In this document: piece after piece, positions 56,944-63,989 of the stretch
Layout of the letters: the number at the start of each line of letters is the position of its first letter
How positions within the stretch are numbered: the first letter of the stretch is position 1
Source of the DNA: Malachius bipustulatus
Taxonomy: Eukaryota > Arthropoda > Insecta > Coleoptera > Melyridae
DNA: 64,000 nt
Assembly (NCBI GenBank): GCA_910589415.1
Contig: OU342630.1
Coordinates: 5,208,001-5,272,000, forward strand
Direction: 5' to 3'
Program-made: the position numbers and the translations under genes
Notes under the pieces: generated by a model
Told to the model about the DNA's origin: nothing
The model's database searches: none
What the model saw: only the letters and a program-made list of their open reading frames with translations

Positions 56944-57606
56944 GTATTTGGTATTTGGTATTTTAACTAAATGTGAGAGATGGTTTATTAGGTCCCAAAC
57001 ACTGAAGCCAGCGGGCTTATTGTATTTCTCACATTTAGATTCTCCTTGATTAGAAGAGCTCCGTTCCTTTGACAAGGTTTAGCAGCCCGCTAACCAAGGT
57101 TTTTTCCGCCAGATGGCTCCCGGGACTGATTGGTCCCAGGACCGCATAGCGCGTTCGTGCGAGTGCTGGACACTCGAATATCACATGAGAAGCTGTCTCG
57201 TCTTCTTCATTGCAGAGTCTACAAATTGGGTCTTCTCTGTATATCCCCAGTTTATGTAGGTGTACTCTTAGGTGGCAGTGTCCTGTGAGAAGACCCACCA
57301 CCGTTCTGATCTGCATTCTATTTAGTTGCAGTATCTGTCTGGCAAGGTTTTGAGAGGGCTCCTTGATCATCACCTTACCATGTTTGTTTCCTGTTATACG
57401 GTTCCAGTGTGCTCTATGTTGTGTTCTTATCCACTGAGCCACCGCCCCGCGTACAGTGTTCTTTGGGATGCCAAACACTGGTTCGGGCCCAGTGTAGTTT
57501 ATCCCAGCGCCTTTCTTGGCTAGTTGATCTGCAGCCTCATTACCAGGCGTCCCACGGTGACCCGGAACCCAAACTAGTGTCACCACGTTACACCTGGCTA
57601 AGTCAA
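56944..57606 (-). mobile_element. Element H: 5'-truncated non-LTR fragment, 13-bp TSD
   Basis: Flanked by CCCATTAACAGAG at 56931-56943 and 57607-57619. Encodes the end of RNase H (VPGHRGTPGNEAADQLAKKG) and the C-terminal Cys region (GHCHLRVHLHKLGI, CRLCNEEDETASHVIFEC) at 57586-57050, uninterrupted. The 3' tail is built of repeated AAATACC units. Closely related to the element at 33422-35212. Confidence 0.9.
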
Positions 57607-57619
57607 CCCATTAACAGAG

Positions 57620-57696
57620 ACTTTAAAGTTCTATTTGATAGGAAGTTTTCAATGAAATGATAAATGTGAGTTGTGAGTTGATAAATAAATTATTGA
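57620..57696 (-). pseudogene. Element F RT fragment between inserts H and E
   Basis: Short coding piece (HFIENFLSNRT) that joins the 63596-64000 and 56749-56930 parts. One base is missing relative to the expected frame. Confidence 0.75.
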
Positions 57697-58022
57697 AGTT
57701 TGTGACGTTACAGTAACGTCGCGACGCTGGAAAGCGACGCCAGAATTCAAATAAAATATTATTCCCACGAAAGTTGAGAAGAAACCATGTAGGAATTATT
57801 CAAGTAGTGAATTATTAAAATTAAAGCAGGTAAATCGGCGACAACAAGATAAGGGAGGTTTTTTATATTGGTATCAGTGGTTGTTTACAGAAAGTGCCTC
57901 TAGGAAGGAACGGAAACAACATTTAATTCAGCGAGAAATATTAAAATATTAAATCCGAGCAAATAAATGCGAAGCCGAGAGGAAAACAAGATAAGAAGTT
58001 GTTGTTGTTTACGTCCGGTACC

Positions 58023-58030
58023 TATATAAA
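58023..58030 (+). promoter_or_regulatory. TATA box of element E LTR1
   Basis: TATATAAA followed by GGGACCGAG. Transcription should start about 25-30 nt downstream, before the hairpin array. The same box lies at 61117-61124 in LTR2. Confidence 0.7.
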
Positions 58031-58073
58031 GGGACCGAGATTGAAGGAACGGCAGCAGATGGCAGCTGGCCTT

Positions 58074-58480
58074 CCTAGAGAACTGATCTAGGATAGCCGG
58101 TCCGCCATCCATGGCTCACCCCCTTGCCCAGAGGCCCGAGTACTGATCGGGACTTCTCCTAGAGCGAAGAAGAAGAATTGACTCTTCCAAGCTCACACCT
58201 TAACCTACCCCAATGCGAAGCCTGGGTACTGACCAGGAGTCAAGTTGGGATAACGCGAGAGAGTAGTATTGATACTCTTTCGTCACCCCCTAAAGCTTAT
58301 CAGTCTCGAACGTGGACCCAGGTGAAGCGAAGAATTGATTCGCGTCCCTGGTCCAATTACTCTGAGTAAGCGTATCATCCCCCCGTGACTTCCTAACGAG
58401 TCGAAGTATTGACTCGACGAGTTAGACAGGCACATAGAAGGTCAACCTTCGGTTGCGAACGAGAATTGACCGTTACGCAA
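58074..58480 (+). other. Array of eight hairpins with common heptaloop GWAYTGA
   Basis: Loops (5' to 3'): GAACTGA at 58080, GTACTGA at 58140, GAATTGA at 58175, GTACTGA at 58226, GTATTGA at 58266, GAATTGA at 58332, GTATTGA at 58406, GAATTGA at 58463. Stems differ completely: CCTAGA/TCTAGG, CCCGA/TCGGG, GAAGA/TCTTC, CCTGG/CCAGG, AGAGTA/TACTCT, GCGAA/TTCGC, TCGA/TCGA inside CTAAC/GTTAG, AACG/CGTT inside TTGCG/CGCAA. In hairpins 3, 7 and 8 an A/C mismatch flanks the loop. Constant loop with freely changing paired stems points to a protein-binding RNA site. It is repeated in LTR2 at 61168-61574. Confidence 0.85.
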
Positions 58481-59076
58481 GCGAAGACGAGCCCAGTCAC
58501 TCATCAAATAATGAAATCCATGGTCATTTCAGATAACTAAAATTTTACCCCGAGCTAATCTAATTTATTAATTAAATTATTCATTTAAATAAAAGGGAAT
58601 TTTTCATAAATTGAGACCATAATAAATTTCATGTAAATAATATTAATCGAGAGTTTTATTCAGTTCATTTCTCATGCTTTTATCGACGCGATAAAAATAA
58701 TAGTAAAATCATTCCGTTCCCGTCTCATATTGCACCACTAACATTTTATTTTCCAGTTGACTGAACTCCACAGAAAAACTTGTCCTCCTCGACCTACTGG
58801 CATAATCTCATCGTCGAGCGGCGGCCGGGACACTGTTTTTTACCGGGTGCTGGGCCGGGAAGATATACCGGGCGTTCACCCAGCATGCTGAACAAATCGA
58901 CTAATTATTTTACGTTTATCGCAGTTTATGGGAACAATAAATTTACATTATTTTTTTAAATGTCGTGTATCATTTGTGTAAATCCACCCAAATATCCCGT
59001 TTGAAGGCATTGGTTAAGAAATAAATTAACCCAATAATTAAGACGTCCTCTCCAAAAAAAGGAGAGACGTCACAAC

Positions 59077-59094
59077 TGGCGCCCGAGCAAAAAG
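59077..59094 (+). other. Element E primer binding site
   Basis: TGGCGCCCGAGC begins 2 nt after the LTR. The first eight bases match the Lys-type retroviral PBS and the rest do not. tRNA not assigned. Repeated at 62171. Confidence 0.65.
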
Positions 59095-59161
59095 AAAATA
59101 AATACAGGGATTTTCCCTAAAAATTAGCACCCTTAGCTAATAAAAAAAAAAAATTATAATA

Positions 59162-60613
59162 ATGCCAAATTCAGACGAGGAGGGTGCGACAGCACAAACC
59201 ACGACAAGCGCGTGGATACACCAGCTCACTAAAGAGCAAGCTATTGAAGAGACCACCAAATTAGGTCTCGACAGCACTGGAAAATTAGATGAGCTAAGAG
59301 CCCGCTTGCGAGGACATTTCGCATTAAAGTCAATTGTCCAAGGAGCTCAAGGGGCTCGCCCAAAAGAGCAGAGCCAGAAATGCGTAAGCGAAACCGAGCT
59401 GTTAAAACGACAGTTAAGAGAAGCGCAAGAAACCATACAAAAAATGCAGCGTGCAACCGCACATACTGCATCAATGCCACAAAGCAACAGCAACGTGACG
59501 CAAGGACAGACAATCATGGGGCCCTCCTACCCACTGGAATCCATAAAAATTATCCAGAAAGGAAATGTATATTTCAGCGGTAGGTCATCTGAAGCTCCTG
59601 AATTTATAGAACGCCTCGAGGAACTTCGAGCAACGTTCGGCATCCCACAGGAGCACATGCTACAAGCATTAATAATCTGTCTGCGAAACGATGCGCTATT
59701 ATGGCACAGAAACAATTCCCACAAGTGGCACTCGTGGAAAGGTTTCAAAAACATCTTCGCAACAGACTTCTTCCCAGCCAACTATGTTGAAAGGCTCGAA
59801 GAAATAATAAGAAACCGAAAACAGAAGCACAACGAAGCACCGGGATCATATATTAATGATATCCTAACCCTCATACGCAGGGAAGGAAACCTGAACGAGA
59901 TCCAAACTCTCGACAGGGTATATAAAAACATGCTCCCCCAATACAAAATTTATGTCCGTAGAAGCGATTTTACGACGCTTTCGGGTTTGCAGCAGCTAAT
60001 GCAAAACTTCGAACAAATTCAAAGCGAAATAGCGAAATGTAAAGAAGAACGCTTCCAACGAACCCCAGTCACGGGAAACAATGACAGGGACGACCGCCCA
60101 GAGAGGCCTTACGTTTACGCGCCGTCACATAGGCAGCAGCAACAGGACAAACGGTACGAAAGTCGCCAAGATAGGCATCGACCTACCGACACAGGCCCCA
60201 AGATCGACATTGTAGACACTAATATTAACCTAATAGAGGTAGTGACCGATGTCGGGTGCTGCGAGGAGCAGGCCGAGGTTAAGTACCTCGAAAAACAGTC
60301 TCCTCAAGGGAAACCAAACGTCGCTGACCACGACGAAGGTTACATGACTGGATACGCCTGCAACGACGACGCAGCAGAGCCCGCCACGAGTGCAGCAGGA
60401 TACAAACCCGCCTCGACAAAGCGAGCTAGCCCCACAGGCGAATTTCAGGGGAAAATTACGCACGGCGTATATACGAGACGCGAGCAAGCAGACAAGCAAC
60501 GTCAGGCTCAGCGCAACAGCAGCTACTACAGTACAGCCGCAAGCGGTGAAGCTTCCAGGGATAACGCGGCATCTACGCAGCGACGATGGAAGTTCAATAC
60601 CCGTCCGCCGTAG
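59162..60613 (+). CDS. gag: Element E gag, full copy
   Basis: 483 codons from ATG (ATAATGCC). A SAP-like DNA/RNA-binding motif lies at residues 21-52 (LTKEQAIEETTKLGLDSTGK then LDELRARL). A Gln/Lys coiled region spans about 75-98. A Ty3-type capsid region runs from about 137 to 300 (VYFSGRSSEAPEFIERLEEL...). The C-terminus is polar, Arg/Ala/Ser-rich, with no CCHC knuckle. Virus-like particle protein. No pol follows before the PPT. Confidence 0.9.
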   Translation: MPNSDEEGATAQTTTSAWIHQLTKEQAIEETTKLGLDSTGKLDELRARLRGHFALKSIVQGAQGARPKEQSQKCVSETELLKRQLREAQETIQKMQRATAHTASMPQSNSNVTQGQTIMGPSYPLESIKIIQKGNVYFSGRSSEAPEFIERLEELRATFGIPQEHMLQALIICLRNDALLWHRNNSHKWHSWKGFKNIFATDFFPANYVERLEEIIRNRKQKHNEAPGSYINDILTLIRREGNLNEIQTLDRVYKNMLPQYKIYVRRSDFTTLSGLQQLMQNFEQIQSEIAKCKEERFQRTPVTGNNDRDDRPERPYVYAPSHRQQQQDKRYESRQDRHRPTDTGPKIDIVDTNINLIEVVTDVGCCEEQAEVKYLEKQSPQGKPNVADHDEGYMTGYACNDDAAEPATSAAGYKPASTKRASPTGEFQGKITHGVYTRREQADKQRQAQRNSSYYSTAASGEASRDNAASTQRRWKFNTRPP

Positions 60614-60784
60614 GATGGATCTCTTAAGATCTCGGATTAGTTTTTAAGCGTTTTTGGAAGGTTCATTATTTTATTATTATTGGTTTGTAAATTATTGATA
60701 GTTGTAAGTTAGCGTTCGTTGTCAATTTTACTTCCGAGGACGGAAGAGAAAAATATCCTCATGCTTCAGATTTTTTTTACCGAC

Positions 60785-60794
60785 GTGTGGGGGG
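60785..60794 (+). other. Element E polypurine tract
   Basis: GTGTGGGGGG directly before LTR2. Confidence 0.75.
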
Positions 60795-62168
60795 TGTGAC
60801 GTTACAGTAACGTCGCGACGCTGGACAGCGACGCCAGAATTCAAATAAAATATTATTCCCACGAAAGTTGAGAAGAAACCATGTAGGAATTATTCAAGTA
60901 GTGAATTATTAAAATTAAAGCAGGTAAATCGGCGACAACAAGATAAGGGAGGTTTTTTATATTGGTATCAGTGGTTGTTTACAGAAAGTGCCTCTAGGAA
61001 GGAACGGAAACAACATTTAATTCAGCGAGAAATATTAAAATATTAAATCCGAGCAAATAAATGCGAAGCCGAGAGGAAAACAAGATAAGAAGTTGTTGTT
61101 GTTTACGTCCGGTACCTATATAAAGGGACCGAGATTGAAGGAACGGCAGCAGATGGCAGCTGGCCTTCCTAGAGAACTGATCTAGGATAGCCGGTCCGCC
61201 ATCCATGGCTCACCCCCTTGCCCAGAGGCCCGAGTACTGATCGGGACTTCTCCTAGAGCGAAGAAGAAGAATTGACTCTTCCAAGCTCACACCTTAACCT
61301 ACCCCAATGCGAAGCCTGGGTACTGACCAGGAGTCAAGTTGGGATAACGCGAGAGAGTAGTATTGATACTCTTTCGTCACCCCCTAAAGCTTATCAGTCT
61401 CGAACGTGGACCCAGGTGAAGCGAAGAATTGATTCGCGTCCCTGGTCCAATTACTCTGAGTAAGCGTATCATCCCCCCGTGACTTCCTAACGAGTCGAAG
61501 TATTGACTCGACGAGTTAGACAGGCACATAGAAGGTCAACCTTCGGTTGCGAACGAGAATTGACCGTTACGCAAGCGAAGACGAGCCCAGTCACTCATCA
61601 AATAATGAAATCCATGGTCATTTCAGATAACTAAAATTTTACCCCGAGCTAATCTAATTTATTAATTAAATTATTCATTTAAATAAAAGGGAATTTTTCA
61701 TAAATTGAGACCATAATAAATTTCATGTAAATAATATTAATCGAGAGTTTTATTCAGTTCATTTCTCATGCTTTTATCGACGCGATAAAAATAATAGTAA
61801 AATCATTCCGTTCCCGTCTCATATTGCACCACTAACATTTTATTTTCCAGTTGACTGAACTCCACAGAAAAACTTGTCCTCCTCGACCTACTGGCATAAT
61901 CTCATCGTCGAGCGGCGGCCGGGACACTGTTTTTTACCGGGTGCTGGGCCGGGAAGATATACCGGGCGTTCACCCAGCATGCTGAACAAATCGACTAATT
62001 ATTTTACGTTTATCGCAGTTTATGGGAACAATAAATTTACATTATTTTTTTAAATGTCGTGTATCATTTGTGTAAATCCACCCAAATATCCCGTTTGAAG
62101 GCATTGGTTAAGAAATAAATTAACCCAATAATTAAGACGTCCTCTCCAAAAAAAGGAGAGACGTCACA
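60795..62168 (+). repeat. Element E LTR2 (central)
   Basis: 1374 bp, offset 3094 from LTR1, one difference noted (C for A in CTGGACAGCG). Confidence 0.94.
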
Positions 62169-62255
62169 ACTGGCGCCCGAGCAAAAAGAAAATAAATACA
62201 GGGATTTTCCCTAAAAATTAGCACCCTTAGCTAATAAAAAAAAAAAATTATAATA

Positions 62256-63476
62256 ATGCCAAATTCAGACGAGGAGGGTGCGACAGCACAAACCACGACA
62301 AGCGCGTGGATACACCAGCTCACTAAAGAGCAAGCTATTGAAGAGACCACCAAATTAGGTCTCGACAGCACTGGAAAATTAGATGAGCTAAGAGCCCGCT
62401 TGCGAGGACATTTCGCATTAAAGTCAATTGTCCAAGGAGCTCAAGGGGCTCGCCCAAAAGAGCAGAGCCAGAAATGCGTAAGCGAAACCGAGCTGTTAAA
62501 ACGACAGTTAAGAGAAGCGCAAGAAACCATACAAAAAATGCAGCGTGCAACCGCACATACTGCATCAATGCCACAAAGCAACAGCAACGTGACGCAAGGA
62601 CAGACAATCATGGGGCCCTCCTACCCACTGGAATCCATAAAAATTATCCAGAAAGGAAATGTATATTTCAGCGGTAGGTCATCTGAAGCTCCTGAATTTA
62701 TAGAACGCCTCGAGGAACTTCGAGCAACGTTCGGCATCCCACAGGAGCACATGCTACAAGCATTAATAATCTGTCTGCGAAACGATGCGCTATTATGGCA
62801 CAGAAACAATTCCCACAAGTGGCACTCGTGGAAAGGTTTCAAAAACATCTTCGCAACAGACTTCTTCCCAGCCAACTATGTTGAAAGGCTCGAAGAAATA
62901 ATAAGAAACCGAAAACAGAAGCACAACGAAGCACCGGGATCATATATTAATGATATCCTAACCCTCATACGCAGGGAAGGAAACCTGAACGAGATCCAAA
63001 CTCTCGACAGGGTATATAAAAACATGCTCCCCCAATACAAAATTTATGTCCGTAGAAGCGATTTTACGACGCTTTCGGGTTTGCAGCAGCTAATGCAAAA
63101 CTTCGAACAAATTCAAAGCGAAATAGCGAAATGTAAAGAAGAACGCTTCCAACGAACCCCAGTCACGGGAAACAATGACAGGGACGACCGCCCAGAGAGG
63201 CCTTACGTTTACGCGCCGTCACATAGGCAGCAGCAACAGGACAAACGGTACGAAAGTCGCCAAGATAGGCATCGACCTACCGACACAGGCCCCAAGATCG
63301 ACATTGTAGACACTAATATTAACCTAATAGAGGTAGTGACCGATGTCGGGTGCTGCGAGGAGCAGGCCGAGGTTAAGTACCTCGAAAAACAGTCTCCTCA
63401 AGGGAAACCAAACGTCGCTGACCACGACGAAGGTTACGCAGTTTATGGGAACAATAAATTTACATTATTTTTTTAA
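62256..63476 (+). pseudogene. gag: Element E gag, truncated second copy
   Basis: Same as 59162-60613 up to residue DHDEGY. At 63437/63438 the sequence jumps into LTR position equivalent to 58921, adding about a dozen LTR-derived codons before a stop. It lacks the C-terminal 90 residues. Confidence 0.9.
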
Positions 63477-63591
63477 ATGTCGTGTATCATTTGTGTAAAT
63501 CCACCCAAATATCCCGTTTGAAGGCATTGGTTAAGAAATAAATTAACCCAATAATTAAGACGTCCTCTCCAAAAAAAGGAGAGACGTCACA
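63438..63591 (+). repeat. Element E LTR3, 3' remnant
   Basis: Equivalent to LTR1 58921-59074 (last 154 bp), ending CGTCACA and followed by TSD AGTT. Confidence 0.92.
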
Positions 63592-63595
63592 AGTT

Positions 63596-63989
63596 GTGTT
63601 CTTGAAGTTTTTGTAAGATCGCAAGTCTGAGTAGGGAGTCGAATGCACCTAATGTCAAACACAGCCGCGATAACTACTTCTTGTTTCTTAGGGAGTGCAA
63701 TGGCAATATCGGTCTGCAGTACTGCTAGATTGTCCATTGTGCTGCGTTGCGGTCTGAATCCTGATTGAGAGGGGTTGATTATCTCATATTTCTCAAGATA
63801 CCAAAGAAGCCTCTTGTTGACCATTTTTTCCAACAGTTTACGCAATGTACCACATGTGAGGGAGATCGGCCTGTATGACTTGGGATGGTCTGAAGGTTTG
63901 TCTGGCTTCTTAATGGGAAGGATTATGGACTTTTGCCACAATTTTGGAAATTTTCTTTTAGACCAGATGTTATTGTAAAGCTCAAGCAT
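63596..63989 (-). pseudogene. Element F RT N-terminal part
   Basis: WQKSIILPIKKPDKPSDHPK, SYRPISLTCGTLRKLLEKMV and PSQSGFRPQRSTMDNLAVLQ are the opening motifs of a non-LTR RT. Motif A (FDI...GAFDSLL) is broken by a 1-2 nt indel near 63635. Cut at 63595 by element E. It continues past the window end. Confidence 0.87.

Follow-up and report, generated by a model that had tools for sequence, protein, structure and literature searches.

An array of hairpins with a shared heptaloop in the long terminal repeats of six retrotransposon lineages of the beetle Malachius bipustulatus

Introduction

At the very 5′ end of the RNAs of human immunodeficiency virus type 2 (HIV-2) and simian immunodeficiency virus (SIV), within R, the trans-activation response region (TAR) repeats hairpins of like loop that are read by protein through the loop. 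The leaders of retroviruses of the murine leukaemia virus (MLV) type reportedly contain a pair of hairpins with GACG loops, which Konings et al. are said to have described in 1992 and which is said to have a role in packaging. The TR-GAG elements of plants are elements with long terminal repeats (LTRs) that retain only gag. The present article concerns a small LTR retrotransposon at 57701-63591 of a 64,000-nucleotide stretch of the Malachius bipustulatus genome (assembly GCA_910589415.1, contig OU342630.1, positions 5,208,001 to 5,272,000), hereafter the window. Its unit of 3.1 kb contains gag only, and its LTR carries eight successive hairpins that present one heptaloop. The array is genuine and under selection as an RNA feature, and several retrotransposon lineages share it.

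The packaging signal of alphaviruses consists of four to six stem-loops with GGG in nsP1, and both the stems and the GGG are needed to select the genome for packaging (PMC8233893). Retroviral leaders fold from R onward into stem-loops that bind Gag, and loops rich in purines, located between R and early gag, recur widely in retroviral packaging (PMC5086612). Non-autonomous pararetroviruses share noncoding regulatory sequences with their helpers (PMC5491270). The selection of their own RNA by LTR retrotransposons is poorly defined even in yeast, where the sites at which Gag binds Ty1 and Ty3 RNA are described as not precisely defined (PMC4974528).

Eight hairpins in the window

The initial annotation had claimed eight successive hairpins, about 40-75 bp apart, with the invariant loop GWAYTGA. 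All eight are present on the + strand, the gag-sense strand, at 58080-58463, and each loop is flanked by complementary sequences that form stems of 4-11 pairs. The count stands; the measured spacing is 35-74 bp. Hairpin 1 (58065-58101) has the loop GAACTGA at 58080-58086. GTACTGA is presented by hairpin 2 (58130-58157, loop 58140-58146), which has a bulged A on the 3′ side, and by hairpin 4 (58209-58249, loop 58226-58232). GAATTGA occurs in hairpins 3 (58162-58194, loop 58175-58181), 6 (58314-58354, loop 58332-58338) and 8 (58447-58485, loop 58463-58469), and GTATTGA in hairpins 5 (58255-58283, loop 58266-58272) and 7 (58393-58425, loop 58406-58412). An A.C mismatch adjoins the loop as the closing pair in three of the eight (hairpins 3, 7 and 8, the last with a 3′ bulged A as well), so that the conserved unit is R-GWAYTGA-Y. 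Past a bulge or internal loop a lower second stem follows in seven hairpins, hairpin 5 being a single stem of 11 pairs. The same eight loops are present again as a second array in LTR 2 (60795-62168, + strand), at 61174-61563.

A motif-blind test was applied in which hairpins with a stem of at least 4 pairs and a 7-nt loop were collected and the best shared loop was counted, with dinucleotide shuffles as controls. The count for 58050-58500 was 8 against 1-3 in 1000 shuffles, and for the whole LTR 8 against 2-4 in 300 shuffles. GWAYTGA occurs at 50 sites in the window; the 34 outside both arrays (15 on the + strand, 19 on the − strand) all have at most 3 stem pairs. Chance is excluded, as had been claimed, by these sites and by the failure of any of the 1000 shuffles to reach even 4 shared loops. 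Within the array, none of the 32 cells at positions 2-5 from the loop has lost its pair, and both partners differ in 20 of 48 stem cells, where shuffles give 6.4. When a covariance model built from the eight hairpins was run unfiltered over the window, it gave 16 matches with an expectation value (E) of at most 0.0015, all in the two arrays and all training hairpins or their copies, which match by construction; the next match had E 0.17. Comparison of 57600-59200 with Rfam 15 gave nothing on the + strand up to E 5 and five minus-strand matches, all below the gathering score.

Two resemblances were considered and set aside. Mimicry of a tRNA anticodon arm or T-arm is at odds with loop position 2, which is not a fixed U, and a likeness to the branch-point YUGAY would place eight branch points in leader hairpins, which makes little sense. 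By eye, TCAYCCCCC is seen in three inter-hairpin linkers (about 58117, 58286 and 58380) and GCGA is seen 11 bases upstream of loops 3, 4 and 5.

Recurrence of the array in the same genome

All DNA comparison was made within one genome of 544 Mb. Scans of viral contigs for gag, for reverse transcriptase (RT) and for a DNA pattern, and one scan of genome contigs, returned no relatives in other species. When the array was used as a DNA query, 40 of 208 candidate copies were scored and were 95-100% identical; in the gag search 88 of 1210 candidates were scored, with 90 matches. The array is found in six LTR lineages, namely A (the family of the window), C, D, L1, L2 and L3, although the gag of the relatives is only 35-62% identical to that of the window. 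Family D (60-62%; L053-L060 and L062) has the loops AAGTTGA, AAGTTGC, ATGTTGC and ACGTTGC. Family C (52-53% in L049, L050, L051 and L064, 46% in L065) has GAGTTGA, with one GAGATGA and one GCGTTGA. The loop of L2 (37%; L067, L068 and L077), L1 (36-37%; L069-L072) and L3 (35%; L078) is G-N-A-N-TGA, one loop of L070 being AAACTGA. The invariance of GWAYTGA thus holds within the window array, but across lineages the loop is R-N-R-N-U-G-M.

Elements of families A, C and D measure about 3.0-3.1 kb from LTR to LTR and contain gag only. Three L1-type hits sit in open frames of 1407-1410 residues, and a piece of one of them, the gag-pol relative L074, contains RT and RNase H. The arrays of L1-L3 obey the same rule as those of the gag-only families. 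The initial annotation spoke of a gag-only element with a SAP-domain Gag; the window element is gag-only and its Gag has a SAP-like N-terminus, but the array is not peculiar to such elements, since gag-pol relatives have it.

The motif-blind best shared loop on the sense strand was 8 in A and 6 in each of C, L1 and L2, against at most 3 in 200 shuffles each. Enrichment in related LTRs, named beforehand in the initial annotation as a test, is thus found: arrays recur beyond shuffles. In family D the scan with stems of at least 4 pairs gave a best count of 3 against up to 4 in shuffles, because D stems are often 3 bp followed by a 2x2 internal loop; the D array rests on a motif-guided scan and per-hairpin folds. 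The LTRs of L1 and L3 align at 79% over 489 bp plus two further stretches (E at most 0.01). At the same threshold L1 and L2 share 54 and 15 bp, A and D 22 bp, C and D 43 bp, and D and L3 17 bp, and no DNA match was found for ten of the fifteen LTR pairs. Array pieces compared alone at looser settings gave matching stretches of 9-54 bp. Individual hairpins have disappeared from some copies of family A, such as the third in one LTR of L040. Family C has an extra hairpin (L049, L050 and L051, about 928) with the loop GCGTTGA and a stem of 8-9 pairs, some 310 bases 3′ of the main array.

Constant loops on replaced stems

Over 39 hairpins the loop is R1-N2-R3-N4-U5-G6-M7, with U5 and G6 in 39 of 39, G1 in 31 and A1 in 8, A3 in 24 and G3 in 15, and A7 in 34 and C7 in 5. 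Flanking cells are paired in 170 of 195 cases, against a mean of 102.6 and a maximum of 132 in 10000 re-dealings within families. In the 37 distinct rows both partners of a pair are replaced in 97 cells; shuffling gives 30.0, and 0 of 500 shuffles reach the observed number. When the partner is slid by 1-3 positions the pairing falls from 87% to 29-47%. Both arms change together and the 39 hairpins have 35 different 5′ arms, which excludes simple duplication, as the initial annotation had argued.

These figures bear on a function at the level of DNA, through cruciforms or a palindrome-binding transcription or chromatin factor, and on a decaying tandem repeat. Watson-Crick pairs predominate in the stems (126 of 156 cells at positions 2-5), which would suit DNA too. 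Arms so varied would, however, hardly be usable by a duplex-reading factor, and a decaying repeat would not re-pair both arms. Moreover, the array lies after the TATA box and folds better as sense RNA, with a folding z-score of −7.7 on the + strand and −3.9 on the − strand. We therefore regard an explanation of this type as very improbable.

Homologous copies were kept when at least 85% (A and D) or at least 60% (C and L1/L3) of the array was covered, and the comparison comprised 59 copies of A (39 distinct), 4 of L1/L3, 15 of D (7 distinct) and 6 of C (4 distinct). Substitutions per cell in family A were 2/1559 in the loop core, 15/623 at the free loop positions, 56/4602 in the stems and 355/9986 elsewhere; relative to the linkers, substitution is 27 times lower at the five fixed loop bases, about as frequent at the two free ones and less frequent in the stems. 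The corresponding values in L1/L3 were 1/160, 8/64, 17/470 and 60/688. Pooled over A, L1/L3, C and D, 3 of 145 loop core sites and 134 of 824 linker sites are variable (p = 2e-7 pooled and 0.02 for A alone, to be taken as a guide only, as the counts ignore relatedness). Loops that vary over constant stems in homologous copies had been named at the outset as the pattern that would speak against the array; the loop core is instead its most constant part. Between the arrays of L1 and L3, which are about 80% alike, three pairs are replaced on both sides, five are kept by one-sided change and five have an unpaired variant. Among the 59 copies of A seven pairs vary yet stay paired and nine have an unpaired variant in some copy, and the same pair can fall into both classes.

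Forty-five hairpins were folded alone, the set being the 39 without one hairpin of L065 (family C) and with seven of L3 added. The heptaloop was fully open in 43, the exceptions being window hairpins 7 and 8, with loop-internal pairs. When pairing within the loop was forbidden, most upper stems comprised 3-5 pairs in D and L1-L3 and at least 5 in A and C. The first irregularity of the stem is a single 3′ base in 17 of the 45 (an A in 12), 1x1 in 9, 2x2 in 7 and a single 5′ base in 2, while the remaining 10 have another irregularity or none. Two hairpins deviate: the expected upper stem does not form in one of L2 (loop at 1154 of L067), and one of D has 2 pairs only.

Such loops could make kissing contacts between copies and so dimerise the genomic RNA, and a 4-nt palindrome is present in 15 of the 39 loops plus closing bases. 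It is absent from the other 24, and positions 2 and 4, which would need to co-vary for pairing, vary freely. It is hard to credit dimerisation on this pattern, since fixed bases at positions 1, 3, 5, 6 and 7 and free ones at 2 and 4 fit contact with a protein better than base pairing.

Position in the RNA and loci without the array

In the window the TATA box TATATAA lies at 58023-58029, 57 bp before the first loop, and the last AATAAA before the end of LTR 1, a possible poly(A) signal, at 59020-59025 (both on the + strand); other AATAAA 3′ of the array are at 58588, 58621 and 58936. In one locus from each of the six lineages the first loop follows the TATA box by 43-68 bp and precedes the primer site by 565-1029 bp, and the last AATAAA is 18-103 bases before the primer site. 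The array should therefore sit at the 5′ end of the RNA. If the last AATAAA is used as the poly(A) signal, R would span the array, which would then be present at both RNA ends. The primer site in these six loci is TGGCGCCC, which we take to be that of tRNA-Lys. These positions, together with the substitution pattern, agree with the initial picture of an RNA hairpin array under selection, located after the promoter, in which the stems are replaced and the loop is kept.

Hairpins so near the cap might control translation, by slowing scanning, by diverting the RNA to packaging, or by serving shunting or internal entry. The short distance from the TATA box is compatible with this, as are the strong fold of the array (z −7.7) and the 10 upstream ATGs that lie between the presumed start and gag. 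A block to scanning would, however, need stems and not a fixed loop, and it is the loop core that is most constant; translational control is accordingly an improbable explanation.

Four loci of P0002-type gag lineages (L085-L088) have no such array and are the only fairly covered negatives; in L088 a single hairpin whose loop fits the general pattern stands alone. No array was seen in the 1500 bases scanned in L079-L084, a weak negative because the matching stretch may lie outside the scanned part. L079, L080, L082 and L084 have the primer site at 809-923, with no TATA box seen. L061, L063 and L066 were not counted as negatives, since each holds just a fragment of a C-type LTR (the end, the last 159 bp or the first 49 bp). 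A model of 38 hairpins gave no match better than E 1.6 in these 13 array-free loci (39,989 bases) and 89 matches up to E 5 in ten array-bearing loci (22,309 bases), the latter run being a sanity check, in which the training families supply nine of the ten loci and L078 alone is a sister.

Plain repeats about 90-130 bp apart, without a hairpin array, occur in the leaders of L087 (about 300-640), L088 (about 540-1000) and L079 (1-220), which carry primer sites of the tRNA-Lys type. In L079, L080, L082 and L084 two TGGCGCC sites lie 90 bp apart before gag.

A candidate reader of the loop

Fixed loop bases, stems indifferent to sequence and about eight repeats suggest that a protein recognises the loop and is bound repeatedly. 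Gag is favoured as this protein because the array lies near the 5′ end, is absent from four other gag types and is retained in gag-only elements. The stretch from R onward is also the place of the Gag-binding stem-loops of retroviral leaders (PMC5086612). We put at about even the chance that the array is a multivalent docking site most likely read by Gag, either the element's own or a helper's, for packaging of the genome, in the manner of the GGG-loop hairpins of alphaviruses. The transcript would start just before some eight short stem-loops that present one heptaloop, G-N-R-N-U-G-A or a lineage variant of it, on stems of arbitrary sequence that as a rule have a small bulge or internal loop beneath their upper part. 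Through its repetition the loop would offer many docking sites, and so avidity, by which Gag, own or borrowed, would pick the RNA with the array for assembly into virus-like particles. The gag-only families A, C and D, which have retained gag and the array, would obtain pol from relatives with gag-pol frames, for example L1-L3. The protein reader, Gag as that protein, the packaging use and the supply of pol by L-type helpers are all steps that we infer. The array offers a site, a motif and natural variants (45 hairpins in six LTR lineages) for the study of RNA selection by retrotransposons, and may explain how gag-only elements keep spreading.

A number of observations weigh against this reading, beginning with the structure on which it depends. 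Two of the five covariation measures are near ceiling and not clearly above shuffles (487/500 and 30/500). Within single families most stem pairs are invariant, and no double compensatory change is seen in A, C or D. Wobble pairs at positions 2-5 comprise 11 G.U and 9 A.C and do not tell which strand is used, and the motif-blind scan of the antisense strand also gave 8, 5, 5 and 3, because the hairpins are near-palindromes. The array-free loci of fair coverage number only four. A CCHC knuckle was not found in the Gags of A, C (L049 and L050) and D (L053), so that the usual RNA-binding part is missing there; one is present in the Gags of L1-L3. The main packaging determinants of human immunodeficiency virus type 1 (HIV-1) and MLV lie further downstream, past the splice donor (PMC5086612). 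Finally, the Gag tree is discordant with the loops. It has the form ((A,D),C), with support of 93/94 for A+D, P0001 as sister (91/90) and L1-L3 apart. Family A, with A3 loops, thus pairs with D, with G3, and not with C, which also has G3; A shares A3 with L1-L3, and C and D share G3. The families A, C and D and L1-L3 are not recovered as one clade, other Gags falling between them. Either loop position 3 has changed repeatedly, or the loop is read not by the element's own Gag but by a helper's Gag or a host protein. If Gag reads the loop, the reading Gag may therefore be that of the helper.

A host RNA-binding protein could read the loops in nuclear export, localisation, stability or translation, the elements having evolved repeated sites for it. 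A loop type that does not follow the element's own Gag tree would fit such a reader, as would a U5-G6 core common to lineages despite their diverged Gags and, if R extends as far as the last AATAAA, the presence of the array at the two ends of the RNA. The same host, however, has LTRs without the array (L085-L088), and the loop differs by lineage, with position 3 uniform within an array, which a single host reader would not require. A host reader is the main rival to Gag, but we consider it rather unlikely.

A tentative extension of docking by Gag, somewhat more apt to be wrong than right, is that the heptaloop R-N-R-N-U-G-M, shown about eight times on stems that can be replaced freely, is a lineage-specific Gag recognition code of insect LTR retrotransposons. 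The gag-only families would stay mobile by displaying the loop that the Gag of a helper recognises, and shifts at positions 1, 3 and 7 would mark groups that do not cross-package.

The host element and its Gag

LTR 1 (57701-59074, + strand; 1374 bp) begins with TGTGACG, ends with CGTCACA and is repeated at 60795-62168 as LTR 2, as part of a repeat of 2643 bp that is 99.96% identical. The target-site duplication AGTT is read at 57697-57700 and 63592-63595. On the + strand, LTR 1 is followed by the primer binding site TGGCGCCCGAGCA at 59077-59089, which is presumably of the tRNA-Lys type, by gag at 59162-60613, which encodes 483 residues with a SAP-like N-terminus and an Arc-like capsid, and by the polypurine tract GTGTGGGGGG at 60785-60794. 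In the interval from gag to LTR 2 no open reading frame (ORF) of at least 120 residues besides gag and no long pol ORF were found, and no RT was found in the window element. Beyond LTR 2 lie a second, 3′-truncated copy of gag (62256-63437) and the final 158 bp or so of a third LTR (63434-63591), both on the + strand.

The order of the insertion is odd, LTR-gag-LTR-truncated gag-LTR end, with one 4-bp target duplication flanking the whole (57701-63591). In the second unit there is a jump from within gag into the 3′ part of the LTR. On either side of the insertion lie minus-strand ORF pieces (57050-57586 and 63555-63989) that resemble, by eye, the RNase H and RT of a non-LTR element, into which the insertion may have landed.

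With a 1374-bp LTR, AGTT on both sides and a primer site of the tRNA-Lys type, the window element appears to fit the Osvaldo lineage by LTR length, primer site and target duplication. This lineage of Ty3/gypsy elements is described as having LTRs of 997-2055 bp, a tRNA-Lys primer site and mostly 4-bp target duplications (PMC3286476).

The window Gag matches Retrotrans_gag of Pfam (E 3.9e-5), and its predicted structure is nearest to the dArc1/dArc2 capsids (best E 3.4e-7). It has no Pfam SAP match; its N-terminus is modelled as a helix-loop-helix, with helices at 24-33 and 42-63 (mean predicted local distance difference test score 82-96, residues 21-60). The homologue P0034 matches Pfam SAP at E 6.4e-6, above cutoff, P0001 matches SAP_new25 at 3e-4 and SAP at 0.0027, both below cutoff, and the L1 Gag gives 0.026 with SAP_new25. 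Gag relatives of named source come from the beetles Sitophilus, Gonioctena, Photinus and Carabus, the fly Lucilia, the leafhopper Macrosteles and the moth Cydia. The gag frame of family D (L053, ORF 1495-2931) ends in a retropepsin-like aspartyl protease (RVP, E 2.7e-4), and L053 has no other ORF of more than 150 residues up to the next LTR.

Comparison with known systems

No description of a repeated-heptaloop array in an LTR element was found in the open-access literature searched, most subscription papers lying outside the search. The word "hairpin" is absent from the main text of the Osvaldo paper (PMC3286476). TR-GAG elements are plant elements, and no hairpin array is mentioned for them in the accessible sources. 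As in the non-autonomous pararetroviruses, the defective elements of families A, C and D keep the cis signals of complete partners; in the pararetroviruses the sequence itself is shared by recombination, whereas here loop and architecture agree and the LTR DNA hardly aligns.

The systems nearest in kind are the alphavirus packaging signal and the GACG hairpins. The latter resemble the array in that hairpins with conserved loops lie in the 5′ untranslated region of an LTR element. They are a pair with a four-base loop outside the LTR, in contrast to about eight hairpins with a heptaloop inside it. TAR of HIV-2 and SIV differs in having two or three hairpins, Tat/cyclin T1 as readers and another loop. 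The alphavirus signal is like the array a succession of stem-loops with a conserved loop sequence, and no sequence relation between the two is claimed. The details of the array are thus new, while its kind has precedents in viruses.
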